From Vulcanococcus sp. Clear-D1 (GTDB lineage: Bacteria > Cyanobacteriota > Cyanobacteriia > PCC-6307 > Cyanobiaceae): a stretch of DNA of 64,000 nucleotides. The DNA is taken from positions 124,001 through 188,000 of the forward strand of contig NZ_JACVZV010000018.1 in the NCBI RefSeq assembly GCF_014654725.1, read 5' to 3'. Under the pieces are notes generated by a model. It was not told the DNA's origin. It searched no databases and saw nothing but the letters and a program-made list of their open reading frames with translations. The position numbers and the translations under genes were made by a program. Of the stretch, positions 2,220 to 64,000 are shown piece after piece (the stretch's first letter is position 1; each line of letters starts with the position of its first letter).

Positions 2220-2342
2220 CACCAGGAACAGAGCATCGAGCAGGCCAGCAGGGCATAGCCCAGTGCTCAGCCCACTGTATGGGCTCTGTACTAAGAGCCG
2301 CAATCGCAAGGGCTGTTAGTTCCTAATGGCTCCGTCTGCTGA

Positions 2343-6046: not shown

Positions 6047-6061
6047 GGGTGTCGCTACGGA

Positions 6062-6256: not shown

Positions 6257-6359
6257 GTATGCCTGGAGTTCTGAGCACAGCCTAAGCACACCCGGCAGGG
6301 CTTGATAAGTTGAACATTGCTGAGGCGTCTGACTCAGTGCAAAGCCTGTCGTCACGCCC

Positions 6360-45138: not shown

Positions 45139-46098
45139 TCAGCGCCGCGGTGCAGCCGCCCTGGGCGTGGTGCCCTTGACGGCCTCCAGATAGAGCTCGG
45201 CCGTACTCAGGGTCTGCAGGTTCACCGCGCCGCCGTGCTCATGGCTCGTTTCAGGCACAGCAGCCGAATAGAGGCCGCTGCGCTGCTGGAACAGGAAGCT
45301 GTACACCGGGTGGCGGCGCAGCTCCTCCATGTAGTCGCCATCGCTCAGGGCCACCCCGTCGGCGGTGAGGGGCTGGCCCTTGCCGTCCACCGGCAGCAGC
45401 CGCTCGCGGCCATCCACATCCGCCAGCTGGAAGTGGCCGCCGCACAGCGTCACGAAAGTGTCAAAGAAGGTGCCCCGTTCGTCGCCACCCACGCGGCCCT
45501 CGGCCTCGGAGAACAGGCGCTCCATCAAGCGCTCCTTGCGCAGATTCTGCACCTGAGAGCGGGCCTCGTCCCGTTCCTTTTCAACGCTGCGCACGCGGCG
45601 CAGGTTGGCCTCGTTGAGCTGGCGCTCGCGCTCGCCCACCTGGCGCTCGAACTCCTCGCGCTTGCGTTCGGCGTCCTGCAGGCGGGCGTATTCGTCCGGG
45701 TTGATCTCCGAGAAGCGCGACAGCTGGGCACGGGCCTTGCGCAGTTCTTTCTCGAGCTGGTTGCTGCGGCGCCGTTCAGCCCGCAGGGGATCAGCATTGC
45801 TGGAAGCGGCTGCAGGGGGGTCGTCGTTGTCGCCGCTGGCGCTGCTCGAGTCCTGGGGAGGAACAGCATCAAAGCTGTCGTCACCTGTGCCGACGTCGTG
45901 GCCGCCGGCCTCGTCGTCGCCCTCATCGAGGGGGTCGAGTTCAGCAGCTAGTGGAGCTAAGGAACCAGCAGGTCCCTGGTTGGGTTGCTGCTGCTGCTGG
46001 CGGTAGGTCTGCCACGGAGCAGAAGAGGCCAGGGGAGCTGGAGCAGCGCCGCTGTTGGCGCCATAGGAATCAGAGGAGAAGAAGGAGGAGGACATCAC
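45139..46098 (-). CDS. scaffold-like protein with long coiled coil (319 aa)
   Basis: A flexible, acidic, Q/P-rich N-terminal 110 residues lead to a long charged helix (RRSNQLEKELRKARAQ through NLRKERLMERLF, about residues 110-210). A short globular C-terminal domain follows (TFFDTFVTLCGGHFQL; GDYMEELRRHPVYSFLF). Disordered acidic arm plus coiled coil plus small capsid-binding end is typical of phage scaffolds. It lies between portal and capsid genes. ATG at 46095 is an equally possible start. Confidence 0.72.
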   Translation of the reverse strand: MMSSSFFSSDSYGANSGAAPAPLASSAPWQTYRQQQQQPNQGPAGSLAPLAAELDPLDEGDDEAGGHDVGTGDDSFDAVPPQDSSSASGDNDDPPAAASSNADPLRAERRRSNQLEKELRKARAQLSRFSEINPDEYARLQDAERKREEFERQVGERERQLNEANLRRVRSVEKERDEARSQVQNLRKERLMERLFSEAEGRVGGDERGTFFDTFVTLCGGHFQLADVDGRERLLPVDGKGQPLTADGVALSDGDYMEELRRHPVYSFLFQQRSGLYSAAVPETSHEHGGAVNLQTLSTAELYLEAVKGTTPRAAAPRR

Positions 46099-46155
46099 CC
46101 ATCACGGCTGTGGTGTTGCGGGCGCCCCGTCCGGGCTGCGCTCGCTTTCCCTGTT

Positions 46156-46180
46156 GCCAGCAGCCGATCCCACTGCTGGC
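46156..46180 (+). promoter_or_regulatory. leader-like hairpin before the 46216 gene
   Basis: GCCAGCAG (46156-46163) and CTGCTGGC (46173-46180) form a perfect stem. A possible outer stem is CGCCCC (46123-46128) with GGGGCG (46193-46198). The layout resembles the other leaders, but the interior lacks their shared strings. Confidence 0.4.
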
Positions 46181-49056: not shown

Positions 49057-50646
49057 TCAACCCCCGATCTCCCCATTGGGCTCGCCCAGCCCCAGCCGTT
49101 GGCGCAGCTCCACGCCGTCGATCACCCCCCGCTCATGCAGCACCAGCCATTCCTGCACTGAGGGTTGGGGTTTTCGTGGCGGCTGGGGCGGCACCAGTGG
49201 GCAGATCTCCACGCTGCAGGCAGGTGCATCCGCCAGCTTTTCGCCGGTGAGGCGGGTCCACTGGCGTAGCAGGGTGCTGAGCATCGAGCTCTTCTGGCCC
49301 GCAAGCGACTGCAGCACCGCAAAGCTTTGGCCAGCAGTCAGGGAAATCTCCAGCTCTGTGCGGGCAGGGCCGTGGCCGCCGGCTGGGATCAGGGCGTCGC
49401 GGCGCATGGCTTCTTCCAGCTGCTGCAGATAGGCCCGGTGCTCCGCCAGCGAACGCGCCTCGATCTCGACCCACTGGAACTTGGCGCCCTCGGGCAGGTC
49501 CATGAAGGAGGAGGTCGAGAGCACCAGGCGCTGGGGCCGCTGGCCCTCTGCGGCGGCGGTGGCTGCACCCGAGCCGAGGGCCCCATCACTGCGGCGGAAG
49601 CCGTAGGCATCGACCAGCCCCGTGCGCACACCCACCGGCAGGGCGGTGCGGGAGAGGAGATCCTCGTATTCACTCCGGCAGCGGTAGTGATTGAGGTACT
49701 GGTGGGCCAGGCCCAGGTGGGGCAGATCGCCTTCGCCAAAGGCGGTGCCATCCACCGAGTACCAAAGGGCCGGCAGGTCAAAGCGCTGGGGCATCCGCTC
49801 CGGCTCCCCCACCGGCACCACGTCGTAGCCATCAACGCCGCCGGGGCTGGGGTTGGCCTGCCAGCTGCGCAGCACCAGGCCGTCATCGCTCACCGAGAGG
49901 CGGCGGTACAGCCAGGCCGCCGGATCCGGTACCAGGCCTCCGTGAGCGTCGATCACCACCGTGGGCACCGCTGCATTGCCAGTGGCGAATCGGGGCGGCA
50001 GCGCCTGCCGCAGCGGTTCCCGCCAGACGATCTCCACCGGCCCCGATGCCGGAGCGCCTGTGGCGCAATCGGTGGGCAGGCGCCAGTTGAGCAGGTCGCC
50101 ACGGGGCACCAGCTGCAGACGGGGCAGGGATAGCCGGTCGCCCTTGGCGAGGGCCTCCAGCTGGTCCCCCTCTGAGGGCCAACGGTGCTGGGGCGGCAGT
50201 TGCAGGATCAGGCAGCCGCCATCGCGCAGGGTGAGCAGGTCGGCCAGGAACAGGAACACCCCCAGGTCGGTGCCCTGGCCGTCCACATCGGTCGCTACCC
50301 GGCTCAGGGAGTCGGGCAGCTCCTGCCAGGCCAGCCGTGACAGCATCCCCGCGTAGGTGCGCAGGGCATCGCGGTAGAAGCCGGTGGGGCGAGCTGCCTC
50401 GAGCCGCTTGAGGTAGCAGGTCTCGGGCTCCTCAATCCCGCGGGGCAGATACACCGGCCGGCGGCTGGTGCCGTCAGGAAGCTCCAGCAGGGTCCAGCAG
50501 TCGTAAACCAGCTGAAGGCGGTCACGTAGGCCGCTCAGGGTTGGGTGCTCTAGCCAGGGAGGCTTAACGGGAGCCTGAAAACCAATAGCGGGTGGGAGCG
50601 CGCAGAAGGAGGCTGGAGCTGGGCTGGGACGGAGGGATGTCGGCAT
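49057..50646 (-). CDS. portal protein, DUF4055-like (529 aa)
   Basis: The length and block order fit the DUF4055 portal group: N-terminal PPWLEHPTLSGLRDRLQ, YLPRGIEEPETCYLKRLEAA, LTLRDGGCLILQLPP, GLAHQYLNHYRCRSEYEDLL, and the C-terminal SLAEHRAYLQQLEEAMRR followed by TAGQSFAVLQSLAGQKSS. Portals form the dodecameric ring at the capsid vertex through which TerL pumps DNA. The gene order terminase, portal, scaffold, capsid is kept on this strand, except for the low-GC island 50.8-55.0 kb. Confidence 0.82.
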   Translation of the reverse strand: MPTSLRPSPAPASFCALPPAIGFQAPVKPPWLEHPTLSGLRDRLQLVYDCWTLLELPDGTSRRPVYLPRGIEEPETCYLKRLEAARPTGFYRDALRTYAGMLSRLAWQELPDSLSRVATDVDGQGTDLGVFLFLADLLTLRDGGCLILQLPPQHRWPSEGDQLEALAKGDRLSLPRLQLVPRGDLLNWRLPTDCATGAPASGPVEIVWREPLRQALPPRFATGNAAVPTVVIDAHGGLVPDPAAWLYRRLSVSDDGLVLRSWQANPSPGGVDGYDVVPVGEPERMPQRFDLPALWYSVDGTAFGEGDLPHLGLAHQYLNHYRCRSEYEDLLSRTALPVGVRTGLVDAYGFRRSDGALGSGAATAAAEGQRPQRLVLSTSSFMDLPEGAKFQWVEIEARSLAEHRAYLQQLEEAMRRDALIPAGGHGPARTELEISLTAGQSFAVLQSLAGQKSSMLSTLLRQWTRLTGEKLADAPACSVEICPLVPPQPPRKPQPSVQEWLVLHERGVIDGVELRQRLGLGEPNGEIGG

Positions 50647-50863
50647 TGCGAACTGGCGGGACTCCAGCTATTGCCGGAGTCAGGATTAGAGCGCCAAAAG
50701 CAAGGAACAGCTATACATCACGAAGGCAATACTTTTCTAGTAACCCCCTCTGCCGCTTCATGGCGGAGAAGCAGTTCTATGGGCGCTTCTGAGTTTGCGG
50801 ATTACATCGAACACTTAAGGGGCTAGATTCAAGCCGTCCATGCGCTTGCATTCATCGGCGTTG
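50647..50863. other. junction between phage genes and the low-GC island
   Basis: No gene. GC drops sharply near 50690. The interval probably contains the portal-side end of the inserted block and the promoter of the portal run, but I see no clear -35/-10 pair or terminal repeat. Confidence 0.4.
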
Positions 50864-51685
50864 CTACGACATGCCCTCCATGAGGGTAGAGCGTTCATGA
50901 AGAATTGAGGCATATGCTTCTTGCAATCCATTTGAATAAAAGAATCTCTCTGCTCGGTCTAGACAAGCAATGGCCTCTTGAAAGTCGCCTTGCGCAAGAA
51001 GTGAGCGGCACTTGATGATGTGAGGACAGGCACTAGGGCAATTGTTTGCGATAGCAATCTCGGACCATTTGCCAGCGTCTTCCTGGCGATGAGGCAGCAG
51101 CCAGTAGAGAATGCAAATCCATTCTAGAAACTTATGCTGAAAAGGTGGGCTTGCATCAGAGGAGTCAGCTATGTGCTCGGCTAGTTCATAGTCTTTGCCC
51201 TCGAGTGCGCAAGCCATGCATGTCGCAGCAAATATCTTGTAGTTGTTGGACAGTATACTGCTGTCATAGTCGGAGAGCTTCTTCGATATGAGCTCAAAAC
51301 TATCTACGTACCAATCATAGGCTTTGCGAGGGCCAATGCTCACGCAAAGAGCACGATAGAATTCGTCAAGCCGATCAAATGTCAGCGAAGAAAGAGCTGA
51401 AAACTCTCCGATCGCAAACGAAGGCAAGCCCGCCGAGAGAAGAAGTCTGCAGTTCTTGAAACGGATATCGTTAATGTGTCCATTGTTCAATAATACATAA
51501 TGCAGGGCGCTTGAGTCTGCTTTCTCTAGATCCTCGTTGTCATTCCTCCTCCCTGTTGGTATGGGCAGCTCACTAATAATTGCATCTTGAGCTTGAAGTA
51601 AGACTTGGGCAGCTTGTTCAAGTCGCTCAACATTGCTCAAGCCGTGGGATGCACTTGAGGAATGGTCGTCTTCAATTGCTGCCAT
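50864..51685 (-). CDS. helical-repeat (TPR-like) protein of the GTPase locus (273 aa)
   Basis: Start chosen at MAAIEDDHSSSASHG, 1 bp after the stop of the upstream gene. From residue 90 onward successive helices of TPR-like spacing are seen (AFSALSSLTFDRLDEF-type, NNYKIFAATCMACALEGKDYELAEH, IIKCRSLLAQGDFQEAIACLDRAERFF). Such solenoids are protein-interaction platforms. Low GC and AT-rich third positions match the rest of the island. Third gene of the minus-strand trio. Confidence 0.65.
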   Translation of the reverse strand: MAAIEDDHSSSASHGLSNVERLEQAAQVLLQAQDAIISELPIPTGRRNDNEDLEKADSSALHYVLLNNGHINDIRFKNCRLLLSAGLPSFAIGEFSALSSLTFDRLDEFYRALCVSIGPRKAYDWYVDSFELISKKLSDYDSSILSNNYKIFAATCMACALEGKDYELAEHIADSSDASPPFQHKFLEWICILYWLLPHRQEDAGKWSEIAIANNCPSACPHIIKCRSLLAQGDFQEAIACLDRAERFFYSNGLQEAYASILHERSTLMEGMS

Positions 51686-51686
51686 G

Positions 51687-52712
51687 TTAGTTGTCAAGCA
51701 TTCCAATTATGTGTGAGTAGAAAGTGTCAGCAATCCTCTCAAAATCATCTTCAATATCGGCAGGAGAAGGGCCCTCATCCATGAAGATCGCTAGGTTATC
51801 TAATTGTCTGTTCAGAATATCTCGCTTATGAATATCGATTTCATGAGCCGGAGGTTGCCAGAACGGGATGAGGAGTTTGACAAGCCTTAGTCGTTTTTCG
51901 GGGGGCATGCTCCACGCATCAATGAGGATCTCATACGCTCTTTTCCTGTCACGCTGTATCACCTTTTCGGGGTCATGGAAAAGCTTAGACTTAGTGCATG
52001 CATGCATGAAATGCTGAACAGTCCTAGATCTATATTCCGCTGAATATCGTGCCAGCATATCCCTCATGGCAAGAGATTGCCGGACTAGATATAGTAGTCC
52101 ATCTGGCTCTGCCGCTGACTTGACTTGGTTTGCCGCAATAGATAGTTCATCTGTCCAGTCATCTGGACTTTCATTGTCTTCCGCGGCCAAGTATTGAGAA
52201 CGCGGATAATTTTGTGCGTCGGCTGAGGGCGGAGTCTCGGCTGCAGTATCAGCCGTCAGACCCTTGTAATAAGATAATATCCCATGAAGGTTTAGCTCGT
52301 GAAGCTCAACGAGTCTTGGTTCATGGTTCCTGGCAGACTGGTATCCGATAATCTCTGACGCAAGTAGGCTTTGGATGTCGGCAAGCGAATACTGTTGAAA
52401 GGCATAGTTGTCATCGAGTTCTTGGAGAACACCAACGCCTAGCTTGATCGGTCGACCGATCTGCTCAAAATAAGGTATCCCTTGAAGGTTAAATGCACTA
52501 ATCCGTCCGCACCACATTTGGAGATGAATATTCTCGTCCACGAGACGACATGAGGCAGTGATGTCTCTGTCTGCATAGTCCAGCGGAAAAAAACTCTTTA
52601 TTCTTTTCCTAAGATCCATTCCTGGCATGCCGAGCGAAGCAGGAAGACCTGTAATCAACTGATAGTCGCACCACTTATTTCTGGTGATAATGGCTAAGTA
52701 GCATTTATGCAT
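51687..52712 (-). CDS. companion of the GTPase, unknown fold (341 aa)
   Basis: Lies 5 bp downstream of the GTPase stop. The first half is beta-rich (CYLAIITRNKWCDYQLITGLP, then SFFPLDYADRDITASCR, GRPIKLGVGVLQ), the second helical (SLAMRDMLARYSAEYRSRTV; ILIDAWSMPPEKRLRLVKLLIPFW). GTPase-linked bacterial conflict systems often carry a GTPase-associated partner with such a mixed structure, but no specific family is recognised. Probably forms a complex with the GTPase. Confidence 0.6.
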   Translation of the reverse strand: MHKCYLAIITRNKWCDYQLITGLPASLGMPGMDLRKRIKSFFPLDYADRDITASCRLVDENIHLQMWCGRISAFNLQGIPYFEQIGRPIKLGVGVLQELDDNYAFQQYSLADIQSLLASEIIGYQSARNHEPRLVELHELNLHGILSYYKGLTADTAAETPPSADAQNYPRSQYLAAEDNESPDDWTDELSIAANQVKSAAEPDGLLYLVRQSLAMRDMLARYSAEYRSRTVQHFMHACTKSKLFHDPEKVIQRDRKRAYEILIDAWSMPPEKRLRLVKLLIPFWQPPAHEIDIHKRDILNRQLDNLAIFMDEGPSPADIEDDFERIADTFYSHIIGMLDN

Positions 52713-52717
52713 GATGC

Positions 52718-53920
52718 TTAACCCTCAAGGTCTCGGATCGTCACGATGCATTCGGGATTCATCGCCTCAAAGGTATGCATTCCTTTGAGAAACATTTCAC
52801 AGCAATACTGCTGAGCTCGTAGCTCGTCTGCAATTTGTCCCTGTTGCTTTAGAATCTCTTGTAGGGCGGTCTCGTGTTCTTTGACCTGCTCGGTATGTCG
52901 ACGTTCAGCTTCACCTCCAATTCCTTCGCCTACCCATTTGAAAAGAGAACCGGCGAAAGGAAGCTGAGAAAGTCCATCAAAGCCTCTTTTCATCCCAACA
53001 CGAATTCCCCCTTCAAGATCAAGCTCTGGGCGCTTGCCCAGCTTGATCTCTGCCTCTCTGGCTCGTTTTAACTGCTCTTGCTCGGCGTAGATCTGCTGCT
53101 CAATATAAAGAGGTATCAACGATGTTAAAGGGAATTCAACATTGAAGGGCTCAGGGAACACTTCTTCTCGCTTATTCATGGTATCAGATTCCTCATCATA
53201 CCAGGCAAAGTTTTCTCCGACTGAACTGACTGGATAAACACGAATAGACGCTTTGCGATCTCCTTTGATCATTGCCTCCTCAACCAATGGCCGAGCAAAC
53301 TCACTGACCTCTCGTATTTTTGTAAACAGAAGGCGCTTGCAGTCCTGAAGGCTTAGCCCGGCCGACTGCAGTACATCCCATTTTGATATAACAAACTGCG
53401 TGGGCTTTGTTGCATCTTGCAGAAGAGGAGGGATAACTGTTGAGCCAAATCGTACGGCCCATCTCACTCCAGGCTTGCTGCCTTGATGCAGCTGAAGCAG
53501 TCTTAAGCCGTCTACCAGCACAAGATAGCCATCGGCGCTCCGAATCGCCTTCTGCACTTCTGCGTCAACGTCTGTGTAGCCCTCAAAATTACCTCCAGCG
53601 TAGTCAAGATAGTTGAATGTCAGGGCTTTGACTGTTTTGCCATCATTCTTCCTTACGCGACAATCAAAGCTCCAGGATGAAACGTTTGCAGTTCCGGGAG
53701 GCCACTCGGATTCAAAAGCAACCGTTTCGTAGATCTTGTTCAGGGTATTGATTTTGTCTTGTTGATCTGGCAAGGAAAGATAAAAATCAAGATTCCCTCT
53801 GGCAGGCACATTTAACTTTTTCCAAAGTGCCGCAAGATATACTGTTTTCCCCGAGCCTGAGGGGCCAATCATTAGAATATTAAAATCTGTCTTGGCTTTC
53901 TCGAGATTAGATTTGCCCAT
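52718..53920 (-). CDS. P-loop GTPase of a conflict-system type (400 aa)
   Basis: Start chosen at MGKSNLEKAKTDFNILMIG, because the upstream extension crosses the divergent neighbour's start. Walker A GPSGSGKT is at 19-26. A switch-like DYAGG follows at 106-110, in place of the usual DxxG. The base-recognition motif reads SKWD at 179-182, a variant of NKxD. The last 120 residues are a charged coiled coil (QQIYAEQEQLKRAREAEIK). It is probably a TRAFAC-type regulatory GTPase controlling an effector. Confidence 0.78.
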   Translation of the reverse strand: MGKSNLEKAKTDFNILMIGPSGSGKTVYLAALWKKLNVPARGNLDFYLSLPDQQDKINTLNKIYETVAFESEWPPGTANVSSWSFDCRVRKNDGKTVKALTFNYLDYAGGNFEGYTDVDAEVQKAIRSADGYLVLVDGLRLLQLHQGSKPGVRWAVRFGSTVIPPLLQDATKPTQFVISKWDVLQSAGLSLQDCKRLLFTKIREVSEFARPLVEEAMIKGDRKASIRVYPVSSVGENFAWYDEESDTMNKREEVFPEPFNVEFPLTSLIPLYIEQQIYAEQEQLKRAREAEIKLGKRPELDLEGGIRVGMKRGFDGLSQLPFAGSLFKWVGEGIGGEAERRHTEQVKEHETALQEILKQQGQIADELRAQQYCCEMFLKGMHTFEAMNPECIVTIRDLEG

Positions 53921-53983
53921 GGTCAAAGGGGTCCATACTCTTAGGTCCAAGCTAACATGGTAAACAGAGTTTGAGGTCTGGCC

Positions 53984-55024
53984 GTGGGTGACCATGAATC
54001 CATCCTTAAGGATTTCACTTCGTACGACGCTTATTCCTCGGCCTGCCGAGCGACTGGAATACTTCCGCTGACTTGGTTTGAGTTTTGCAGGGCAAAGGAA
54101 AATCGTCTTGCTGCAGCCTATACGTCAACCGCCGGTATAATATTTAATGCCGAGGACATCGAGAGGCATATTCCCGATCCATTGGAATTCGGAAGTCTAT
54201 CGCCAAGCATTCGCTCTAAGTTCCATCTTGCAGGAACGCATGGTGCTTATAGGAATGGAGAGGAAGCGGCCGAAGTCTTTTATCAGGACACCCCTGAACC
54301 GATCATCAGATCTGGATCAGAGGTTCTTTTAGAGTCGTTCCTTGATGGGAAGCACTATTCGCATATCGTTCCGCATTCTGGGGGTGGCAGCTATGACCCT
54401 CAAAATATGATTTGGACGCCAGCCAATGAGAATCTGAGGCAGGGAGATACCCCCTTGACTCAATATCAAGCCGCATTGTATGAGATCAGAAATGATCAAG
54501 AGGCGATTGCTATGGCTCGGGATATTGACCGAATTGACCTCTTGGGTGACATAGAAACCATTGGTTCTGTTGTTGCCGCTTGTGCGGCTACAGGGAGCTT
54601 GAATGCTGTAACGCAAAGACTTGCTTATCTCTACGGTTTGGGCGGAGGCCAGGCAATTTCCGCCTTGCCCCAGATGGCTGAACTGATTGCAGCTGACATT
54701 ACTTATGCCGCAGTAAACTCTTCAATCCGTGGTGCTTCTTCTGCTGGTGTGGCTGTGCTAACAGGGAATCCCATGCTTGGGGCGGCAATAGGTTTTGTTG
54801 TAGTGGATGGCCTCAGCCTTCTTGGAAAAGTTCTAAACCAACAAGTCACTTCTTCTGACGCTGGAGAATTCGCGGCGAAAGCGCTTGGCTCTGGTGCATT
54901 GGTGGCAACATGCGTCGCGTTACCGCCGATTGGAATCTCGCTGGCTGTTCTGAATGTTCTTGGGTCCTTCATGCGCGGTAGTGCGGCAGGGGCTGGCTGG
55001 ATAAAAGCGGAAATCAATCGATAG
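53984..55024 (+). CDS. HNH-like protein with C-terminal membrane helices, candidate effector (346 aa)
   Basis: GTG start; divergent from the GTPase, 63 bp apart. The HNH-like core is DGKHYSHIVPHSGGG (121-135), then PQNMIWTPANENLRQGD (139-155), with His residues and Asn141/Asn150 in the expected order. The C-terminal 150 residues contain three hydrophobic stretches (about 192-205, 253-285, 302-330) rich in Gly and Ala, as in pore-forming helices. A nuclease-like domain plus membrane helices suggests a toxic effector. HNH folds without nuclease activity also exist. Confidence 0.65.
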   Translation: MGDHESILKDFTSYDAYSSACRATGILPLTWFEFCRAKENRLAAAYTSTAGIIFNAEDIERHIPDPLEFGSLSPSIRSKFHLAGTHGAYRNGEEAAEVFYQDTPEPIIRSGSEVLLESFLDGKHYSHIVPHSGGGSYDPQNMIWTPANENLRQGDTPLTQYQAALYEIRNDQEAIAMARDIDRIDLLGDIETIGSVVAACAATGSLNAVTQRLAYLYGLGGGQAISALPQMAELIAADITYAAVNSSIRGASSAGVAVLTGNPMLGAAIGFVVVDGLSLLGKVLNQQVTSSDAGEFAAKALGSGALVATCVALPPIGISLAVLNVLGSFMRGSAAGAGWIKAEINR

Positions 55025-55076
55025 CAAGTGTTCTGCTTTTGCCGGATCTCTGTCCTTGGCGATTGATCATTGGCAT

Positions 55077-55766
55077 TTAATCAATCTGCAGGCTCACTAT
55101 TCTTGCTGAGCAAGCCTCAAGTATGGTTTGCCACTGCTGCCTTGTTATTCTCAGGTGTTTCAGCATCGCGGCTAACGAGACGTCTGAACCAAGCATCCGG
55201 TGCCCCCGTGCGTGAATTTCCCGCCAGGTCGGCGGCACCTTGAGCAGGAACCCGTTGTCACGCAGGAAGTGTGTGATCTCCCCGTTGGCGTAGGTGCGGC
55301 CATAGGGCCGAAATGGGCCCCGTGAGGGGTCGTAGCGCCGGGCCGCTTTAATCAGCCCGATCATGGCGATCTGTAGCAGATCCTCCTTGGGGTGAACGGT
55401 GCGCCGAGCGAAGTTACCGGCGATTTTTTCGGCCAGATCCCTGTGCTCCAACGCCAGGGCATCGGCAGCGGCGTGTGGCCGCACCGGCCGTTCTCGCCGT
55501 GGCCTGCAGCGAGGAGGCTGCTGACACTGAGTTCTGGGCAGGTGAAGCACTGGAGCGTGGAGGTTGATCTCCAGCTGCTGCGCACGGGCATGGCACGCCG
55601 GCCGGCGGTAGCGCCGTTGCCGCAGCATTCGCTCCGCCCCAGCTGCATTGCCCACCAGCACCACCGTGAGCGGCAACACCAGCTGTACAGCAGAAGGAGT
55701 CAGCACGGCAGGGCGTGGGCTCTCCACTGCGGAAGGCTTGGGATGTTCCCGCACCGCGGACACCAT
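55077..55766 (-). CDS. sigma-70-like factor lacking region 4 (229 aa)
   Basis: ATG 8 bp after the terminase stop. Region 2 is clear: LAEKIAGNFARRTVHPKEDL, LQIAMIGLIKAARRYDPSRG, PFRPYGRTYANGEITHFLRD, as in SigB/SigF-group factors. Region 3 follows (VPPTWREIHARGHRM; ITRQQWQTILEACSARIVSL). The protein stops two residues later, where region 4 would begin and where GC falls towards the HNH/GTPase island. It may be truncated. The N-terminal 100 residues are low-complexity, and M at 55628 is an alternative start. It may direct late transcription. Confidence 0.7.
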   Translation of the reverse strand: MVSAVREHPKPSAVESPRPAVLTPSAVQLVLPLTVVLVGNAAGAERMLRQRRYRRPACHARAQQLEINLHAPVLHLPRTQCQQPPRCRPRRERPVRPHAAADALALEHRDLAEKIAGNFARRTVHPKEDLLQIAMIGLIKAARRYDPSRGPFRPYGRTYANGEITHFLRDNGFLLKVPPTWREIHARGHRMLGSDVSLAAMLKHLRITRQQWQTILEACSARIVSLQID

Positions 55767-55774
55767 CGGCCCGC

Positions 55775-57421
55775 TCACCGGCTCACCAGCAGCGGCGTCA
55801 CCACCGGCTGGATGCCCTGAGCCTTCCAGTAGCGGCCCTCCAGCCAGAGGGCGCCGTGGCAGAAGGCATCCACCAGGTCCTTGCTTCCCTTCGGGAAGCG
55901 GATGGCTTCTTCCACCAGCGGCTGGGCGCGGTGGTGGAAGCGGATCTGACCCGCCTCCACCAGGGGTGCGACAGCATGGGCACGGGTTTCCTTGCTGCCC
56001 CGGGCGGTGATCGGCAGCATCCCCGGCACGCGGCGCCTGAGCGTCTGCAGCACGGCCGGGCCGTTGGCCGCGTCCTCGATCAGGACGGCATGGGGGCGCA
56101 GGCCCTGCTGCTCGAGGGCCTCCATGCAGCCCAGCAGGAAGCGGATCACCTCCGGCAGGCCAAAGCGGTGCCGGGCCGCCCACAGCACCTCGATCTCCAG
56201 CGCCGCCTGGGGCATGGGCCCCTGAGATTCACCCGATCGGGGGATGGCAGAGGGAGCCGGTGGTGCCAGCAGGCCCACCAGGCAGAAGCCGCAGTAGTCG
56301 CTCTCCGCCTCCCCCTTGAAGCTCAGGTCACACGAGAGGGCCAGCAGGGCGTAGTGACGCTGGCTGCCGTCCTCGCGGGGGAAGGGCGGCCGGATCCACT
56401 GCCGCAGGAAGATGGATCCAGACGCCGGGCTGGGCCGCTGCTGATACAGCGCCGCCCACCAGTAGGCACCGAGGCGAGCTCTGATCTTGAGCAGTTCCGG
56501 CAGGGGGAAGCGCTCTGGACACAGCGCTTCGCCCGCCTGTCGCCAATCGGGGATCAGGGTGCAGGTGGGCGGCAGCTTGGGGCGATCGGCCGGCTCTTCG
56601 GCGATCGCCGGCAGATCGAGCACGGTCCACTGCTGCGGGGCCTCCCCCAGCTCCTGCTCGTACAACCAGCCGATCACGTCCTGGTGGTCCCAGCGGGTGA
56701 GCACGACCACCTGGGCCGAGAGGTTCGGCTGCTCGGTGCCGTCAGGACCCAGCACCGTCGACGGTTCGGCGCGGGTGAGCCACACCGAGCGCAGCCAGTC
56801 GATCAGCTTCTGCCGCAGCGCAGGGGATGCTGCATCACCCGGGCCCTTGTAGGGGTCGTCGATGATTCCCAGGCTGTAGCCCTTTCCCGTGAACGGGCCA
56901 TCCACACCAGCAGCGATGCAGCCACCCCGCTGCCGCGTCAGCCAGTTCCCCACGGCCGCCGAATCTCTGGCGAGCAGATGGCCCGTCACCCGGTAGAAGT
57001 GGCGGGCTTCTCTGGAGTGGGCGTAGGCCAGCTCAGCTGAGTACGAGGCGATCGCCGCAAACAGATGCGGGTAGCGCTGCAGGAAGTAGGCCGGAAACAG
57101 CTTGGAGACCAGGAGCGATTTCCCCAGGCGCGGCGGACAGGTGACGATCAACCGGCTCAGCTGGCCATCGGCCACCTGCTGGAGCAGGTCAATCAGCACC
57201 TCAGCCCAGCGGTGGAAGCCATAGCGGGGATAGGCCTCAGCGATGAAGCTCCGCAGGCTCAGCGGTTCCGCCTGGATTGGAGTGATGCTGGCCGGCAGGT
57301 GAAGCAGGCCGCCGTCGCCCCAGGGGTCCAGCTCAGGCAACAGCAGGCCGCCCCCCTCGTATGAGGAGGCTTCGGGTTGGAGAACCGTTGGCACTGCCGC
57401 TGTGGTCGTCACCGTTCTCAT
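55775..57421 (-). CDS. terL: terminase large subunit, complete (548 aa)
   Basis: ATPase half: Walker A CPPRLGKSLLVSKLF (from residue 95), then GKGYSLGIIDDPYKG as Walker B, and a coupling-type VVVLTRWDHQDVIG. Nuclease half: ALSCDLSFKGEAESDYCGF (first Asp), HAVLIEDAANGPAVLQ (second acidic motif) and GSKDLVDAFCHGALWL (last Asp). These are the RNase H-like nuclease residues of TerL. The motor cuts concatemers and pumps DNA through the portal. The gene bridges the point where the window overlaps itself. Confidence 0.92.
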   Translation of the reverse strand: MRTVTTTAAVPTVLQPEASSYEGGGLLLPELDPWGDGGLLHLPASITPIQAEPLSLRSFIAEAYPRYGFHRWAEVLIDLLQQVADGQLSRLIVTCPPRLGKSLLVSKLFPAYFLQRYPHLFAAIASYSAELAYAHSREARHFYRVTGHLLARDSAAVGNWLTRQRGGCIAAGVDGPFTGKGYSLGIIDDPYKGPGDAASPALRQKLIDWLRSVWLTRAEPSTVLGPDGTEQPNLSAQVVVLTRWDHQDVIGWLYEQELGEAPQQWTVLDLPAIAEEPADRPKLPPTCTLIPDWRQAGEALCPERFPLPELLKIRARLGAYWWAALYQQRPSPASGSIFLRQWIRPPFPREDGSQRHYALLALSCDLSFKGEAESDYCGFCLVGLLAPPAPSAIPRSGESQGPMPQAALEIEVLWAARHRFGLPEVIRFLLGCMEALEQQGLRPHAVLIEDAANGPAVLQTLRRRVPGMLPITARGSKETRAHAVAPLVEAGQIRFHHRAQPLVEEAIRFPKGSKDLVDAFCHGALWLEGRYWKAQGIQPVVTPLLVSR

Positions 57422-57939
57422 GCCCGGGGCTCCGGCGGCTTGATGGGGGCCCGCAGCAGCCCGCCGATCTCGGCGATCACCCGGAAGGCGCCGACGGCGG
57501 CATTGAACTGGCCCGCGTCCATCGCCCGCCGGGCGCAGTCGTTGAGGGCAAAGATCTGCTCGGCCTGGTGGCGGCGCCGGTCGGTGATCAGCTCCTCCAC
57601 CATTCGCTCGCGGGCGAGGTTGAGGTAGCGGTTGACCGTCTGGGTGTTGTGGATTCCCCAGTTCTCACGAGCATTTTCAATGATCTGCACCAGAGGTAGG
57701 CGCTGAGCCACCCAGAGCTGTGCCTGAGCAATGCGCCGTTCCACCTCCAGCCGCGAGGGCCTGGGAGTGAGTTGAACCGCCACACCCTTGGGGCGACGCG
57801 GTGGATTGGCATGGCCGATTGGCCTGGCCGGATCAGTGGGCTGGTACAGCGGCTGGCCGTTGTCGTCCTCCGCGCTGGCCGCAGCGCGCAGCTCCTCCAC
57901 TGGATCAGCGGGAGGCAGGGCGTGGGCACGCTGCGGCAT
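57418..57939 (-). CDS. terS: terminase small subunit-like protein, second reading
   Basis: Same gene as 1325-1846, here with the complete downstream TerL gene. Its TGA overlaps the TerL start. Confidence 0.65.
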   Translation of the reverse strand: MPQRAHALPPADPVEELRAAASAEDDNGQPLYQPTDPARPIGHANPPRRPKGVAVQLTPRPSRLEVERRIAQAQLWVAQRLPLVQIIENARENWGIHNTQTVNRYLNLARERMVEELITDRRRHQAEQIFALNDCARRAMDAGQFNAAVGAFRVIAEIGGLLRAPIKPPEPRA

Positions 57940-57943
57940 CGGC

Positions 57944-58312
57944 TCAGAACGGCTGGTCCTGCGCCTTCGGGGGGCGGATGGTCCAGAAGGGCTTGCCGCG
58001 CTTCTCGGTGGCGCTGCCCTGCTGGATGGCGCTTTCCTTGGCGGACTTGAGCTGCTGCTCGATCTGCTGGACGGCCGCCGGGAACTCGTAGCTCAGACGG
58101 CCAAGGCTGTGGGAGAAGGCCCAGTCGTTGTGGGAGAAGGAGGGGTCCAGCTGGCCGGACGCCATCGCCGCGCTGAGGGCCTCCAGCAGCGGCTCAAGCT
58201 GCTGCTCCAGTTCCTTCTGCTGGGCCTTGATCGCGGTCAGCGCATCCAGCAGGCCATCGATGCCATCGACCGCTGGAGCAGTCGGTTCAACAGGAGCAGA
58301 AGCGGCAGCCAT
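57944..58312 (-). CDS. small coiled-coil protein, second reading
   Basis: Same gene as 1851-2219; ATG at 58310-58312. Confidence 0.6.
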   Translation of the reverse strand: MAAASAPVEPTAPAVDGIDGLLDALTAIKAQQKELEQQLEPLLEALSAAMASGQLDPSFSHNDWAFSHSLGRLSYEFPAAVQQIEQQLKSAKESAIQQGSATEKRGKPFWTIRPPKAQDQPF

Positions 58313-58435
58313 CACCAGGAACAGAGCATCGAGCAGGCCAGCAGGGCATAGCCCAGTGCTCAGCCCACTGTATGGGCTCTGTACTAAGAGCCGCAATCGC
58401 AAGGGCTGTTAGTTCCTAATGGCTCCGTCTGCTGA

Positions 58436-59122
58436 TCAGAAGGGCCTGCGGGCCAGGCAGTAGCGGCTCCAGGCGGCGGCCCAGGCCGCCAGGCACTGCT
58501 CACGGCTGTAGAAGGTGCTGGTGAAGGCTTCTCCGGGTTTGCTCCAGATCGTCTGGCCCCGCTCGTAGTGGTTTCCCTGGGTGGCCTCCAGCACCATGTA
58601 GCCCCCGAGTTGGGCGGCGGTGGAATAGGGCCGGCCGTGGGCCGAGAGGGTTTTGAGGTCGTAGAGCACCCGCACCGGCTCACCATGGCGCTCGCTCAGC
58701 GCCGGTGAGACATAGGCGCCATCGAAGGCCCCGGCCACGTTGCGGGCCAGACAGCAGGTGAGCCGCTCGCTGGCGATCACCTCCACCTCCTCCCAGAGCG
58801 GCAGCTGCAAAAGCGGCAGGATCCAGTTCCGGTATGGGTGATGGCCCGGCAGTGTCTCGGCTTCCAGCAGGGCATCGCTGGCGCTTTTGCCCACCAGGAA
58901 GCGGGCCTGGCTGTAGTGCTCCAGGGCCGCATGCACCGTGGTCCCGCGCGGCTCCCAGATCGGTCGCTTGGCCTCGATCGCGCGCTTGGCGGTTTCGCTC
59001 AAGCCATGGGCCAGCACGCCGGTGATCGACACCGGAAACAGGTGATCGCCCAGCCAGTAGCGGTGGGCCGCCTCATCCCGCCAGAGGCCGGGGATGGGGT
59101 CCAGCCAGGTCGTCGTCAGCAT
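58436..59122 (-). CDS. PD-(D/E)XK nuclease, second reading
   Basis: Same gene as 2343-3029, with no visible difference. Confidence 0.75.
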   Translation of the reverse strand: MLTTTWLDPIPGLWRDEAAHRYWLGDHLFPVSITGVLAHGLSETAKRAIEAKRPIWEPRGTTVHAALEHYSQARFLVGKSASDALLEAETLPGHHPYRNWILPLLQLPLWEEVEVIASERLTCCLARNVAGAFDGAYVSPALSERHGEPVRVLYDLKTLSAHGRPYSTAAQLGGYMVLEATQGNHYERGQTIWSKPGEAFTSTFYSREQCLAAWAAAWSRYCLARRPF

Positions 59123-59415
59123 GGCCGTTTCCCCTGCAACGGGCTGTGACGGCAGGCGTCACAGCCGAAATCCTGCGCCAGAGCAGGGGTTGAGCCGACC
59201 CTGTGACGCTGTAACCCTCTTTCTCTAAATAGAAGCATTAGCAAGCAGCAGTGTGTCCTGACGCAGGTGTGCATAGGTGTTGATGTGTGTGTGTGAGGGT
59301 GTCTATCCCCGCCGAAAAGCGTCACAGCGTTACAGCCGCTGTGATCGATTGCGCTGCAGTCGATCTGGGCATAACGGTGGGGTGTTGCGGGGTGTCATGG
59401 CTGTGACGCTGCGCC
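59123..59415. promoter_or_regulatory. octamer-repeat region, second reading
   Basis: Same as 3030-3322. CTGTGACG-type octamers fall at 59144, 59157, 59201, 59320 and 59401. Confidence 0.5.
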
Positions 59416-62139
59416 TCAGAGAACCGCCAGCGGGATCGCCACCGCCCGCGTGACCATGCCGGCGCCGCAGAAGCGCACCGGCCCGCGCCGCTGAGCACCG
59501 GCCAGGCGCAGCAACACCACCGCCCAGCCATGGGCCCAGGCCGACTCCCGCAGGATGTGGGCGATCGGTTCGGCCGTGTTGCTCACCAGCAGATGGGGCG
59601 GCTCCAGCCGCAATCCCTGGCGGGCCAGGGCTTGAGCAGCCAACTCCGCGCTGATCTCCAGGTCGTGAGCCTGGTGGGCAGCGAGCTCCACCAGCTCGCC
59701 GATGGTGCGGGTGACGCTGCGATCGGCGCACTCCACCCGCAGCGGGTGCTGGAGGATCGTCTGGATGCAGCGCTGCTCATCGCTGAGCTCGGTGCTCTGG
59801 CTGTAGCTCTCCCAGTCGTGGCAGGCGATGCACTGCTCGGCCTCCTCCTGGGTGGGGACCACATCGCTGAGCAGCGACCAGGCCCCGGCCATCAAGGTGC
59901 CGTACTGATCCCCCAGCCGCTGGGAGTCGAAGTGCCGGGCCGCTACCCGGGTGAACACCCCCTCGGCCTGGCGGATCATCGGGATCAAGCCCACGGTGCG
60001 GGCGATCAGCCGCCGGCCCAGCTCGCTGGAAATGTGGCGATCGAGGTCCCGATCCAGGGATACCCAGTGCATCTCCCGCTCACCCTTGGGCAGCTCGGCG
60101 GGGTTGCGCAGGGTGAGCTGGGCAAAGCGGCTGCGGTCCGCCCCCTGCTTGAGGGCGGTGGCAATCGAGCTGAGCAGGAACATCGAGCGCACCCGGTAGC
60201 GGCTCACCTCCCCGCTCGGGGAGCCCTTGAGCAGGGAGGCCCCGCTTTCGCTGCTGGCCACCCGCGCCAGCGACAGGATTCCCTGCATCCGCTGTTGATC
60301 CGGCCGCTCATTGCTCTCGGCCTCGTCGAACACCACCGGCACGGCGTCGGAGCAGATCGACTGGCGCAGCGCCGCTTCTGTTGTCGAGCCGCTCACCAGC
60401 AGCGCGAAGTCACCCAGCAGGGGGGTGATGTAGCGATCGAGGATCGCGCTCTTCCCCGAGCCCGCACCGCCGGTGAGCCACACATGGGGCCGCCAGCGCA
60501 GCGAACCGCAGATCGGGCCGAGCACCACCCAGCCCACCAGCAGGGTGCCCGAGGCGGGCACATCCCAGTGGAAGCGGTTGGCGATGCTCACGATCACCGC
60601 CGCCTCCTGTACCGACAGCGGTTCCACATCGCCCGGCCCATCGAGGCGCGGCATGCGCTGGTAGACGTAGCGCGAGCGAAAAGGCGTGGTGATCAGGTGC
60701 TCCCCCTCGGGGGTGACGAGCCGATCGCCCAGGTGCAGCAGGGGCCGGCTGTCATCCCACCAGGCCCCGCGGCCGCGGATGCGATCGGGGGTGAATAGCC
60801 CTGCGGCGATCGAGCGCTCGTAGAGGTCGCTGGCCGCCGCCGACCAGTTCACGCCGGTGCGGCTGGGGTAGAGGGTCTCCCAGTGGGCCAGGGGCGCCAG
60901 GGCCACCAGATGGGTGGCGGTGTGGGCTGAGCGGCTCAACCGCAGCACCTGCCCGGTGCGGCCGGAGCGGTAGTAGCTGGCTTCGCCGTCGTAGCCGAGG
61001 CACTGGAACGGCGCCCCGCCACCGCCACCTGCCGGTGACTCAGCGGAGGTGGGCTCCTGCCGATCAGCTTCTGCGTCCTGGTTCGAGGCCCCTTGTGCTG
61101 CCGGTAGGGGCTGCAGCCACTGCTGCAGCTGCTCGGCCGCTTCCGCTGGGCTCCAGTCGGCATCGGCCAGATCCCAGCCCTGCGGCAGATCGGGCGGTGG
61201 CTCCACCAGCTGCACACTGCAGCCCTGCTCGCGCAACAGAGAGGCCAGCCGTGGCATCGCCTTGCGGCCCGGTGCGTCGGCATCGGGCCAGAGCGTCACC
61301 GTCCGCCCCGCCAGCCCCAGTGGGGCCAGCGGTTGCCAGTCGGCCTTGCCGATCGCATTGGTGCCGTTGGCCCAGCTGATCACCACGTGATCGGGAAACA
61401 GCAGCGCAGCTGCATCGGCCGTGCCCTCCCCCTCCACCACCAACACCGGTGCGTCTGGGCGTTGGGCCAACCCCGGCAGGCCGTAGAGGGGTCGGGGGGC
61501 TGGCCACTCGCAGGAGAAGGGATCGCGGCGGCTGGGTCGGTGCCAGCCACCATCGAGCCAGACCCGATGCAGAAAGCCCTTGCGGCCGCTGCGGCCAGGG
61601 CAGAGCCGCTGGATCCAGAACAGCGGGTTCCCCGCCGCATCGCGGTAGCACCACTGGGCGATCGCACCCCGCTCCAGCTCTGGCGGCGCGGCGTCAGCAG
61701 GCGGCACCTCGGGTTGGCGCCAGGGCCGACTGGCGTGGCCGGGGAGTCCTGTGGCCGCAGGGGTGGCCGGTGGGGCAGGGAGCTTGCCGCCGGAACCGTT
61801 GCCGGTGCTCACCGGCTGGGGCCGATGCCGCTCGGTCCCGGCTGGATCCAGGCCCAGGTAGCGCTCCACTTCTTCGCAGGCCTGGCGGAAGCTCCAGCGG
61901 CGCACCCGCATCAGCAGGTCAATCCCGGTCCCCCCACCCCCCAGGTGGTCTTTGCCACCGCACTGGTTGCAGAACCAGGAGCCGTTCCCGTCCCGGTCGT
62001 CAAAGCGGTAGCGGTCCCGCCCGCCGCAGGCAGGGCAGGGCTGGTGGCGGTTGCTGAGCTGCTCGACAGGCAGTCCAGCAAGCGCCTTGAGGATTTCCTT
62101 CCAGCGGCCATTGGCCGCGGTCATCACGTCGGTTGCCAT
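59416..62139 (-). CDS. primase-helicase, second reading
   Basis: Same gene as 3323-6046; complete here as well, start ATG at 62137-62139. Confidence 0.85.
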   Translation of the reverse strand: MATDVMTAANGRWKEILKALAGLPVEQLSNRHQPCPACGGRDRYRFDDRDGNGSWFCNQCGGKDHLGGGGTGIDLLMRVRRWSFRQACEEVERYLGLDPAGTERHRPQPVSTGNGSGGKLPAPPATPAATGLPGHASRPWRQPEVPPADAAPPELERGAIAQWCYRDAAGNPLFWIQRLCPGRSGRKGFLHRVWLDGGWHRPSRRDPFSCEWPAPRPLYGLPGLAQRPDAPVLVVEGEGTADAAALLFPDHVVISWANGTNAIGKADWQPLAPLGLAGRTVTLWPDADAPGRKAMPRLASLLREQGCSVQLVEPPPDLPQGWDLADADWSPAEAAEQLQQWLQPLPAAQGASNQDAEADRQEPTSAESPAGGGGGAPFQCLGYDGEASYYRSGRTGQVLRLSRSAHTATHLVALAPLAHWETLYPSRTGVNWSAAASDLYERSIAAGLFTPDRIRGRGAWWDDSRPLLHLGDRLVTPEGEHLITTPFRSRYVYQRMPRLDGPGDVEPLSVQEAAVIVSIANRFHWDVPASGTLLVGWVVLGPICGSLRWRPHVWLTGGAGSGKSAILDRYITPLLGDFALLVSGSTTEAALRQSICSDAVPVVFDEAESNERPDQQRMQGILSLARVASSESGASLLKGSPSGEVSRYRVRSMFLLSSIATALKQGADRSRFAQLTLRNPAELPKGEREMHWVSLDRDLDRHISSELGRRLIARTVGLIPMIRQAEGVFTRVAARHFDSQRLGDQYGTLMAGAWSLLSDVVPTQEEAEQCIACHDWESYSQSTELSDEQRCIQTILQHPLRVECADRSVTRTIGELVELAAHQAHDLEISAELAAQALARQGLRLEPPHLLVSNTAEPIAHILRESAWAHGWAVVLLRLAGAQRRGPVRFCGAGMVTRAVAIPLAVL

Positions 62140-62154
62140 GGGTGTCGCTACGGA

Positions 62155-62349
62155 TCAACGACGCTCAGCGGCTGCCGCCAACACAGGCCCAGGCAGGGCA
62201 AGGCCGGCCTGTTCTGCCGCGATCGCCGCGTCGATCACCTGGCGCAGCACCGCCGAGCGACTGAGGGTGCCATGCAAGCGGCGCTGGTCAAGCCAAGCCA
62301 GCTGCGCCTCGGTGATGGAGACGCTCAGAGGCGGCGCAAAGGAAGCCAT
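62155..62349 (-). CDS. ribbon-helix-helix-like protein, second reading
   Basis: Same gene as 6062-6256. Confidence 0.6.
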   Translation of the reverse strand: MASFAPPLSVSITEAQLAWLDQRRLHGTLSRSAVLRQVIDAAIAAEQAGLALPGPVLAAAAERR

Positions 62350-62452
62350 GTATGCCTGGAGTTCTGAGCACAGCCTAAGCACACCCGGCAGGGCTTGATA
62401 AGTTGAACATTGCTGAGGCGTCTGACTCAGTGCAAAGCCTGTCGTCACGCCC

Positions 62453-63880
62453 ATGGCCCCGATCGCTCTGCGCGACTACCAGCAGCGGCTGCTGGATGAT
62501 CTCCGCGCTGCCCTCAAGGTTCACCAGCGGGTTTGCGCCGTCATGCCCACCGGTGCGGGCAAGGGTCAGACCATCGGCGCGATCGTTCAGGGCGCCGCCA
62601 GCAAGGGCCGGCGGGTGCTGGTGCTCGCCCACCGGGCCGAGCTGATCGAGCAGCTCACCGGCACCGTGCGGGCCTGGGGGCTGGAGCCCGATGTGATCGC
62701 TCCTGGCCACATGCTGCAGGGCCAGCAGGTCGCCGTGGGCTCGGTGCAGACCGTGGCCCGGCGGCTGGGGCAGCTGCCCCAGCCGGATCTGATCATTCAG
62801 GACGAGGCCCACCACCTGGTCGCCGGCAACGTCTGGGGCCGGATCATCGAGGCCTGGCCTTATGCCCACCTGATCGGCAAGACCGCTACCCCCGAACGCC
62901 TTGATGGCAAGGGGTTGGGCGTGGAGGCCGGCGGCTATTTCGAGGCCCTGGTGCTGGGGCCCTCAGCGGTCTGGCTGGTCGAACAGGGCTGGCTGGCCAG
63001 GCCCAAGGTGTTCTCCTGGCCAGGGGCCAGGAACAGCAAACTGCGACGTCGCATGGGCGAGTTCGACCTGGAGGAGGCGGCACGCGCCTTCGGGGAACGG
63101 GCCGCCATTGGTGATGCGGTGTCGCACTACCGACGCCGACTGCACCCGGGCACCGCCATCTGCTTTTGCTGCACGATCGAACACGCCGAGCAGATGGCCG
63201 GAGCCTTCCGCGCTGCGGGAATCCGGGCCGCGGCGGTGAGTGGCGGCACGCCGGCCGAGGAGCGCAAACGCCTGATCGCAGGACTGGGCACTGGGGAGGT
63301 GGAGGTGCTAACCAGCTGCATGATCATTTCTGAGGGCACCGACATCCCCTCGGTGGGCGGCGCGATCCTGATGCGCCCCACCGCTTCCCTGAGCCTCTAT
63401 CTGCAGATGGTCGGCCGGGCCCTGCGTCCCGCACTTGGGAAGCAGGAAGCGGTGATCCTCGATCACGTCGGCAACGCCCATCGCCACGGCCTGCCCACCG
63501 ATGAGCGCGAGTGGAAACTGGCCGGTCGGCGCCGGCGTGAGGGTGTCTCGATCCCGATCAAGGACTGCCCCGTCTGCTTCTGCAGCTGCTCCAGCGCGAC
63601 ACAGGTCTGCCCGGACTGCGGCCATCTGTTTCTGGCCGAGGAACGCGATGAGCAGCGCCGTCGGCTCCAGCAGGTTGAGGGTGAACTGGTGGAAGTCACG
63701 GGCGCAGCCCGCCACCGGCCTAAGCCCAACCAGCAGCAACGGTCGCGGCGCACGCACCCGGCCGCAGGCTGTCGCACCTTCGAGCAGCTGCTGCAACGCG
63801 AGCAGGATCGGGGCTACAAGCCAGGCTGGGCCAGGCACGTCTGGGCAGCCAGGCAAAAAGGTGGAGGAGCGAACCTCTAA
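62453..63880 (+). CDS. DEAH-box helicase, second reading
   Basis: Same gene as 6360-7787, complete; its last 4 bp overlap the truncated exported-protein gene at the window end. Confidence 0.85.
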   Translation: MAPIALRDYQQRLLDDLRAALKVHQRVCAVMPTGAGKGQTIGAIVQGAASKGRRVLVLAHRAELIEQLTGTVRAWGLEPDVIAPGHMLQGQQVAVGSVQTVARRLGQLPQPDLIIQDEAHHLVAGNVWGRIIEAWPYAHLIGKTATPERLDGKGLGVEAGGYFEALVLGPSAVWLVEQGWLARPKVFSWPGARNSKLRRRMGEFDLEEAARAFGERAAIGDAVSHYRRRLHPGTAICFCCTIEHAEQMAGAFRAAGIRAAAVSGGTPAEERKRLIAGLGTGEVEVLTSCMIISEGTDIPSVGGAILMRPTASLSLYLQMVGRALRPALGKQEAVILDHVGNAHRHGLPTDEREWKLAGRRRREGVSIPIKDCPVCFCSCSSATQVCPDCGHLFLAEERDEQRRRLQQVEGELVEVTGAARHRPKPNQQQRSRRTHPAAGCRTFEQLLQREQDRGYKPGWARHVWAARQKGGGANL

Positions 63881-64000
63881 GTGCAGCCGATTTCACCCCA
63901 GATGTAGAACGATCTACCTTGCGAGGGGTAAACGCAGCGGTCTTGCACCAGATTGGAGTCGCCGCCTACTGACCAACCCACTCCCCATTCCCACATGTAG
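63877..64000 (-). CDS. exported protein, C-terminal fragment (cut by window end)
   Basis: Last 40 or so codons of the gene complete at 7784-8311. The conserved tail after the ACPDVG block is present; the signal peptide lies beyond the window. Confidence 0.9.
   Translation of the reverse strand, partial: YMWEWGVGWSVGGDSNLVQDRCVYPSQGRSFYIWGEIGCT

Follow-up and report, generated by a model that had tools for sequence, protein, structure and literature searches.

Our analysis shows that the sigma factor gene bordering a low-GC island in the analyzed stretch of Vulcanococcus sp. Clear-D1 DNA (64,000 nucleotides, hereafter the window) is intact, and that its region 4 is absent by descent and not by insertion. 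The encoded protein is the sigma normally found next to terL in picocyanobacterial prophages and siphoviruses, and the boundary at which it appeared to be cut off is, judged by sequence and covariation, an integron attC site in 13 of 99 sister loci. Taken as a whole, we hold with moderate confidence that an intact, short late sigma acts via a -10-only promoter box and that the low-GC island is cargo in a variable sigma–portal slot, which holds integron cassettes in part of the sister elements. The sigma gene, its recognizable parts and its upstream neighbors are arranged as follows:

55077..55766, minus strand: terL-linked sigma factor of 229 aa with only regions 2 and 3 (Pfam/PHROGs, family alignments, AlphaFold)
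55251..55451, minus strand: sigma region 2, residues 106–172 (Sigma70_r2, 48.9 bits; median dN/dS 0.027 over codons 91–180)
55095..55232, minus strand: sigma region 3 helices, residues 179–224 (AlphaFold helices H179–193, H198–205, H209–220)
55775..57421, minus strand: terminase large subunit, terL (phrog_38, E 3.7e-74)
57418..57939, minus strand: probable terminase small subunit, terS (position as in P-SS2, S-CBS2 and S-CRES1; weak PHROG match only)

The open reading frame starts at 55766 on the minus strand, its stop codon ends at 55077, and the convergent island gene ends at 55024, with 52 bp in between; frame, coordinates and spacing had been given correctly by the first-pass annotation, which had also rightly described a protein of SigB/SigF type that has regions 2 and 3 but lacks region 4. 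On the protein, Pfam detects only Sigma70_r2 (residues 106–172, E 5.8e-13, 48.9 bits vs a cut-off of 24) and no separate region 3 match, and PHROGs assigns an RNA polymerase sigma factor (E 1.6e-20). Searched against solved structures, a profile from 81 family members finds first 8x6g (E 6e-21), S. aureus SigB by its structure title, and then 1l0o, which we take to be SigF. Region 3 is represented by AlphaFold helices at residues 179–220 and by profile alignments to 1l0o and FliA that extend beyond region 2. The AlphaFold model, computed on the 81-member family alignment, has high confidence between about residues 91 and 220 (88–98 in blocks of ten residues, except for one at 72 and one at 79) and has helices at the positions expected for sigma2 and sigma3; the N-terminus is of low confidence. 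The matches listed by Foldseek for this model all belong to sigma chains or polymerase complexes, although their TM-scores are low (0.29–0.34 over the query). Neither of the Pfam region 4 families PF04545 and PF08281 matches anywhere in the 64-kb window at E <= 1; in the host's own sigma (L004), which served as control, Pfam does detect region 4. Compared with 19 sisters, the window gene has a median dN/dS of 0.027 over codons 91–180 (N-terminal codons were left out, as the codon comparison there is gap-free); the sigma gene is therefore under selection, and by this codon comparison region 2 is under purifying selection. Region 3 of the window copy is unusually diverged, at silent and coding sites alike: Over codons 181–229, pN and pS are 0.315 and 0.696 between the window and the 19 sisters vs 0.096 and 0.441 among those sisters.

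The short C-terminus is a property of the family. A tblastn search of 300 family genomes recovered the sigma gene in 54 at E <= 1e-15, six of them weak, and the locus set was enlarged with loci from virus contigs and genome contigs. Within 600 nt upstream of sigma, terL is found in 97 of 105 loci; it lies further off in one, and the DNA examined holds no terL in seven. The gene order terS–terL–sigma is that of the isolated cyanophages P-SS2, S-CBS2 and S-CRES1, and 34 of the 41 loci best matched by the sigmas of these three phages are terL-linked, five of the other seven being the full-length sigmas of L220–L222, L224 and L225. In 105 of 106 window-type loci, which are not all independent as many are the same element taken from two collections, the sigma ends 0–21 codons beyond the last matched residue of the window (exactly there in 21), the sole exception being L257 with a sigma 72 residues longer. 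This count leaves out L226, which has no sigma, and eight loci in which the match ends before residue 221 (L216, L217 and L250–L255; in the last six, 58–60 residues follow residue 207 and the DNA examined contains no terL). By comparison, the full-length sigmas from the same search extend 94–149 residues beyond the match, as expected for region 4. The earlier premise that family members go on into region 4 is thus not borne out: 105 of the 106 loci are too short for it. Three island-free loci, namely L162 (the same element as L100), L247 and L249, end at about the same point, with a sigma–portal gap of 58 bp in L162/L100 and overlapping sigma and portal genes in L247 and L249; this refutes the proposal that the island had been inserted into the sigma gene. 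The missing region 4, which had been suspected past the island near 50.7 kb, likewise yields no PF04545 or PF08281 match at E <= 1 in the window.

A second sigma copy in the same genome was considered as an island-free comparison and rejected: It sits in the other prophage of a perfect tandem pair, next to an identical island, and therefore says nothing on truncation. The tandem repeat itself (window 1–7907 and 56094–64000; G000:C18 about 84274–196505) has a unit of 56,093 bp, that is, two identical prophages one after the other; a 46-bp core is present three times, its outer copy overlapping a tRNA-Gly(CCC) gene. The repeat may be a genuine double lysogen or may stem from the assembly. Elsewhere in the prophage, diverged direct repeats (window 37749–38643, 68–72% identity, offset 132 bp and multiples) probably encode a repetitive structural protein, and positions 34001–36000 form another low-GC stretch (46–48% GC). 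Further sigma-like frames were also observed. A second short sigma without region 4 (G000:C24:239989-240414; L003, L123; 137 aa, 37% identical) lies in a prophage-like stretch next to a longer sigma and genes that, by eye from their translations, are primase-, helicase-, phosphoesterase- and integrase-like. Two small frames of 84–90 aa (G000:C32:25511-25687 and G000:C4:11297-11455) give stand-alone sigma region 4 matches of 44 bits and are possibly separate region 4 partners or merely small HTH proteins.

A sigma that lacks region 4 raises the matter of the promoters it might read, and a short conserved box stands in front of two late genes:

50668..50675, minus strand: candidate -10 element, the box GGCAATAG, 29 nt upstream of the portal start codon
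49057..50646, minus strand: portal gene (phrog_145 portal, E 1.8e-18; Pfam DUF4055)
46151..46158, minus strand: GGCAACAG box before the scaffold gene, the same candidate element
45139..46098, minus strand: head scaffold gene (phrog_206, E 3.8e-13)

The box GG(C/T)AANAG lies about 28–33 nt upstream of the portal start and occurs again before the scaffold gene, and no -35 element is common to all lineages. In a first set, from which L103 (two sigma genes) and loci without portal were left out, 45 of 48 elements have GGCAA[T/A/G][A/G]G ahead of the portal, and the remaining three have a variant of it. In a second set, GGCAANNG stands near the portal start in 73 of 79 window-type sequences, those with an identical 150-nt upstream region having been removed and 12 S-CBS2-type sequences set apart; an in-frame start codon follows 15–60 nt past the box in 57, and at 28–33 nt in 53 of these 57, the one nearest 29 nt having been chosen where several fitted. 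Mean pairwise identity rises from 28% left of the box (both between lineages and inside the second one; 41% inside the close lineage) to 78–86% in the box (78–82% for comparisons that involve the second lineage), a figure partly due to site picking, and is 32–48% to its right. A motif-free count points the same way: After removal of near-identical flanks (61 reduced to 36), the commonest 6-mers are TGGCAA, CAATAG and GCAATA, each in 16 of 36 upstream regions, vs a maximum of 12 in 200 shuffles that keep single-base content only. Before the scaffold gene the box is present in 19 of 21 elements, among many of which the left-hand sequence differs. For late genes other than portal and scaffold there is no clear family-wide case, one small gene having the box in 6 of 21 elements. 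A crude test of box-to-start spacing over all ORFs, which is not clean, counted 42 at the true offset vs 14–27 at shifted offsets; of the 42, 16 are portals and 10 belong to one scaffold-protein cluster, most of whose listed members are in-gene starts. The box is placed as a -10 element followed by a short leader would be, and it presumably resembles SigF/FliA-type -10 elements; we therefore regard it as a candidate -10-only late promoter. It could also be a translation signal instead. Of the two first-pass readings, that of a factor working without -35 recognition is the more plausible: Region 4 is absent family-wide and the -10-like box has no all-lineage -35, and the use of the box as a promoter is our inference.

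In 13 close relatives, a dyad (ATGCAGATCCTGCAT) lies upstream of the box within a conserved stretch of about 250 nt (mean column identity 75%) at the portal side of the slot between sigma and portal (e.g., L041:10645-10900); several of these stretches, which contain inverted repeats, begin at a RYYYAAC-like border, and the stretch is absent from the window. Given its conservation, a regulator may bind the dyad and replace the missing -35 contact. Downstream of the scaffold box (window about 46090–46160, minus strand; L128–L147), a conserved GC-rich leader, which by eye probably folds into a stem-loop, reaches to the scaffold start; upstream of this box lies another variable slot, which separates the LysM gene from the scaffold gene. 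S-CBS2-type loci (e.g., L259, L275, L283) show, again by eye, a conserved intergenic block about 60–120 nt before the portal-like match, which is unlike the box and possibly the matching late promoter of that lineage.

Conserved sequence at a cargo border might have another origin, and the box might be a recombination or module-boundary sequence and not a promoter element. The sequence shared by all lineages does begin at the box, with variable cargo on its left, and the window has GGCAAAAG at the left cargo border as well (55036–55043). We nevertheless find this explanation rather unlikely: The box is kept in the cargo-free loci L162, L247 and L249, its distance to the start codon is nearly constant, and at the left cargo border it is absent from all sister loci (0 of 93, with about 0.05 expected per locus), on which ground a direct-repeat model was rejected.

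The candidate promoter also bears on whether the protein is a working sigma at all. It might instead be a modulator that binds core RNA polymerase via sigma2 and blocks or redirects host transcription, late genes being served by another sigma. In line with this, the protein has no region 4, and the family end lies where the sigma finger would be expected to begin. Moreover, P-SS2 carries a second sigma, of group 2 (PMC2784084, excerpts). On the other hand, region 2 has hardly changed, its DNA-reading part included, and the late genes are preceded by a conserved -10-like box, which makes a pure modulator unlikely in our judgment. Sigma activity and the promoter role of the box are what we infer from these sequence features.

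Between sigma and portal, sister elements carry a slot of variable content, with a median of 2.0 kb and a maximum of 5.4 kb in 83 loci and up to 7 kb in another locus set; slots above 500 bp (n = 77) have a mean GC content of 51% vs 67% upstream. In many elements, a long inverted repeat ending in GTTRRRY follows directly after the sigma stop codon. These repeats are shown by their features to be integron attC sites: The sister loci have paired core sites, a bulge and covarying stems. For 16 attC sequences, eight from the slot and eight from the host array, 90.8% of cells are paired vs 78.6% in shuffled sequences and 30–41% with shifted partners, and 39 cells are changed on both sides vs 17 in shuffles, the structure having been derived from those same sequences; covariation is alike with 37 attC sequences in an alignment fitted to the model. 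A first covariance model (R1), trained on the eight slot and eight host sites, gives 31 matches at E <= 0.01 in the 99 sister loci plus window (1.11 Mb), eight of which had served for its training, and one match (E 0.0043) in 50 control sources. A second model (R2), trained on 28 slot and nine host sites, gives 36 matches at E <= 0.01 in 26 of 99 sister loci and none in the window, 28 of the 36 being in the training set. All 36 have late-strand orientation and fall inside the slot (21% of bases; taken up to the contig end in loci without portal). The 53 control sources, 799 kb of DNA largely from outside the slot, contain no R2 match at E <= 0.01, the best having E 0.51; at this threshold the model finds no attC in 73 of the 99 sister loci. 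In 13 loci the site takes in the sigma stop codon, starting 4–5 nt upstream of its last base; here, as far as model matches can tell, it is true that the island boundary is an attC site. In four more, the site starts 16–18 nt after that base. A pattern search revealed a second attC type, with six sites in six loci, all in slots; two of these loci also have an R2 match. At least two attC sites are present in ten loci (L041, L043, L049, L148, L166, L168, L183 and L196 by R2; L194 and L210 with one site per type).

Hairpins after a stop codon can also end transcription, and the window's own cargo has no clear attC, so that one might take the slot for an ordinary recombination hotspot and the attC-like repeats for terminators. 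We consider this very unlikely, as core sites, bulge position and covariation are those of attC and not of terminators, the repeats align with the host's chromosomal integron array, and at 22 of 33 sites examined an opposite-strand ORF terminates no more than 64 nt from the repeat, each time on the same side of it. The repeats in the sister loci are thus best read as attC sites, and the slots as carriers of cassettes.

Of 181 mechanically called cargo ORFs, 138 run opposite to the late genes. A cargo scan covered 89 of 156 cluster representatives (the longer ones) and one host ORF, with mechanically picked ORFs and no background compared; among the matches listed, the best 25 of 81 Pfam and 25 of 299 PADLOC families, defence-type families comprise OLD/GajA-like ATPases (4), GmrSD (2), HEPN (2), FRG (2), RelA/SpoT (2) and an ABC-3C domain (1), and transposases and methyltransferases also appear. 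The host genome has a single integrase over the cut-off, an integron integrase (447.8 bits, over the curated cut-off) on another contig than the window and with an attC array nearby. This chromosomal integron (G000:C24:138508-146158, L295, and 149128-150066) comprises the integrase and nine attC sites in a row, and its ORFs run in the opposite direction relative to the attC model to those in the phage slots, a point against the proposed exchange with the slots. Several ORFs of its cassettes encode acidic proteins of about 210–290 aa, and two neighboring cassettes look identical. An integron integrase occurs in 60 of the 300 family genomes, namely in 33 of 48 sigma genomes vs 27 of 252 others (Fisher p 2e-16, uncorrected for relatedness; six weak matches left out).

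The window's own slot holds four genes in two orientations and an attC-like repeat:

53984..55024, plus strand: island gene 1 (346 aa), without family match; a likeness to HNH is seen by eye only
52718..53995, minus strand: island gene 2, DO-GTPase1-like, 425 aa (Pfam 42.5 bits, cut-off 27)
51687..52712, minus strand: island gene 3, 341 aa, no family assigned
50864..51706, minus strand: island gene 4, 280 aa, weak TPR (below Pfam cut-off)
55000..55081, minus strand: degenerate attC-like inverted repeat (best R2 match in 50400–55400, 7.2 bits, E 0.98)

Its GC content of 48% vs 67–69% on the flanks confirms that the island is low in GC, as the first-pass annotation had said. The DO-GTPase1-like gene has no counterpart in the other 299 family genomes at E <= 1e-20, PADLOC gives a best E of 0.04 on the four island genes, and Rfam has no match on eight loci. 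The degenerate repeat is in register with the sister attC sites, its start lying 4 nt upstream of the final base of the sigma stop codon. As it is not significant (no R2 match in 50400–55400 better than 7.2 bits, E 0.98) and its core is missing, R' being without GTT, an integron origin is for the window a likely history but not a demonstrated one; the repeat gives a weak hint of it. The divergence of the sigma 3' end at silent sites (pS 0.70 vs 0.44) suggests that this end may have been exchanged along with the cargo. That the island was inserted into a once full-length sigma gene and removed its region 4, as the stop 52 bp from the island and the unusually diverged 3' end of this copy might suggest, is extremely improbable given that island-free relatives stop at about the same place, that no region 4 match lies beyond the island and that region 2 is under purifying selection.

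With the sigma gene intact, we propose the following mechanism. The sigma most likely directs host RNA polymerase to the phage late operons via the -10-only box GG(C/T)AANAG and, as a late sigma, would read the -10 alone, much as T4 gp55 reads TATAAATA. The low-GC island would be cargo in the variable slot between sigma and portal, which in part of the sister elements holds integron gene cassettes, presumably loaded or exchanged there by the host integron integrase. Since the attC site is fused to the sigma stop codon in 13 loci, cargo could be exchanged without harm to the gene. More tentatively, we put forward as a possibility that the 3' end of the late sigma in one lineage of temperate cyanophages is a standing dock for cassettes with accessory and defence genes, loaded by the host integrase, in which a region-4-less sigma and -10-only boxes would keep the late operons on the far side running whatever is inserted. 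An apparently broken gene thereby becomes a family-wide design, a region-4-less sigma in isolated cyanophages and prophages, and -10-only transcription becomes testable outside T4. Integron cassettes, some with defence-type genes, would occupy one reserved place in a phage lineage of many picocyanobacteria, and phages would be a route for gene exchange between chromosomal integrons.

Several known systems resemble parts of this arrangement. Group 3 sigmas of the SigB/SigF/FliA type have region 4, which contacts the -35 element and the beta flap; the window sigma shares region 2 and region 3 sequence with them, but region 4 is missing in the terL-linked family. T4 gp55 has no region 4 and works together with gp33 and the sliding clamp. 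Like the terL-linked sigma it is a phage sigma without region 4, and the candidate box of our family would be a short -10-only promoter like its own; gp55 is not named among the best 60 of 74 family-profile matches to solved structures. The short late promoter that gp55 recognizes lies between -13 and -6 (PMC1524935, excerpts). Closest are the sigmas of P-SS2, S-CBS2 and S-CRES1, which share the terS–terL–sigma order, align over regions 2–3 with 27–34% identity, and have Sigma70_r2 and no region 4 in the Pfam listing. They differ in about 57–95 extra residues without family match, the tail in P-SS2 resembling a region 4 remnant by eye, and their neighborhoods (L120–L122) have no R2 attC match. 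P-SS2 ORF003 has been described as “type III rpoS”, a group 3 sigma of 214 aa adjoining terL, in an account whose accessible part is silent on a missing region 4 (PMC2784084). In the literature searched, with incomplete coverage and including the accessible part of PMC6157547, we found no account of a cyanophage sigma lacking region 4, nor, with the same coverage, one of cyanophage integron cassettes.

Chromosomal integrons of Synechococcus resemble that of the window's host, and the integron of one Synechococcus sp. is already listed (PMC3108266, excerpts); unlike in these, attC sites occur in phage slots of sister loci, and the integrase of the window genome is on another contig. An earlier survey describes 21 phages with integrons or clusters of attC sites, and phage attC sites have been shown to recombine with IntI1 (PMC9892861, excerpts); a term search of the accessible text found no cyanobacterial names among these 21 phages. 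Cassettes can also enter genomes outside integrons at attG sites (Loot et al. 2024, as cited in the accessible part of PMC12901181), a possible likeness to the phage slot. The phage integrons and CALINs described in the accessible part of PMC9892861 are likewise attC-bearing cassettes in phage genomes, with or without integrase, whereas the sister loci studied here use one fixed, lineage-wide slot, often fused to the sigma stop codon.
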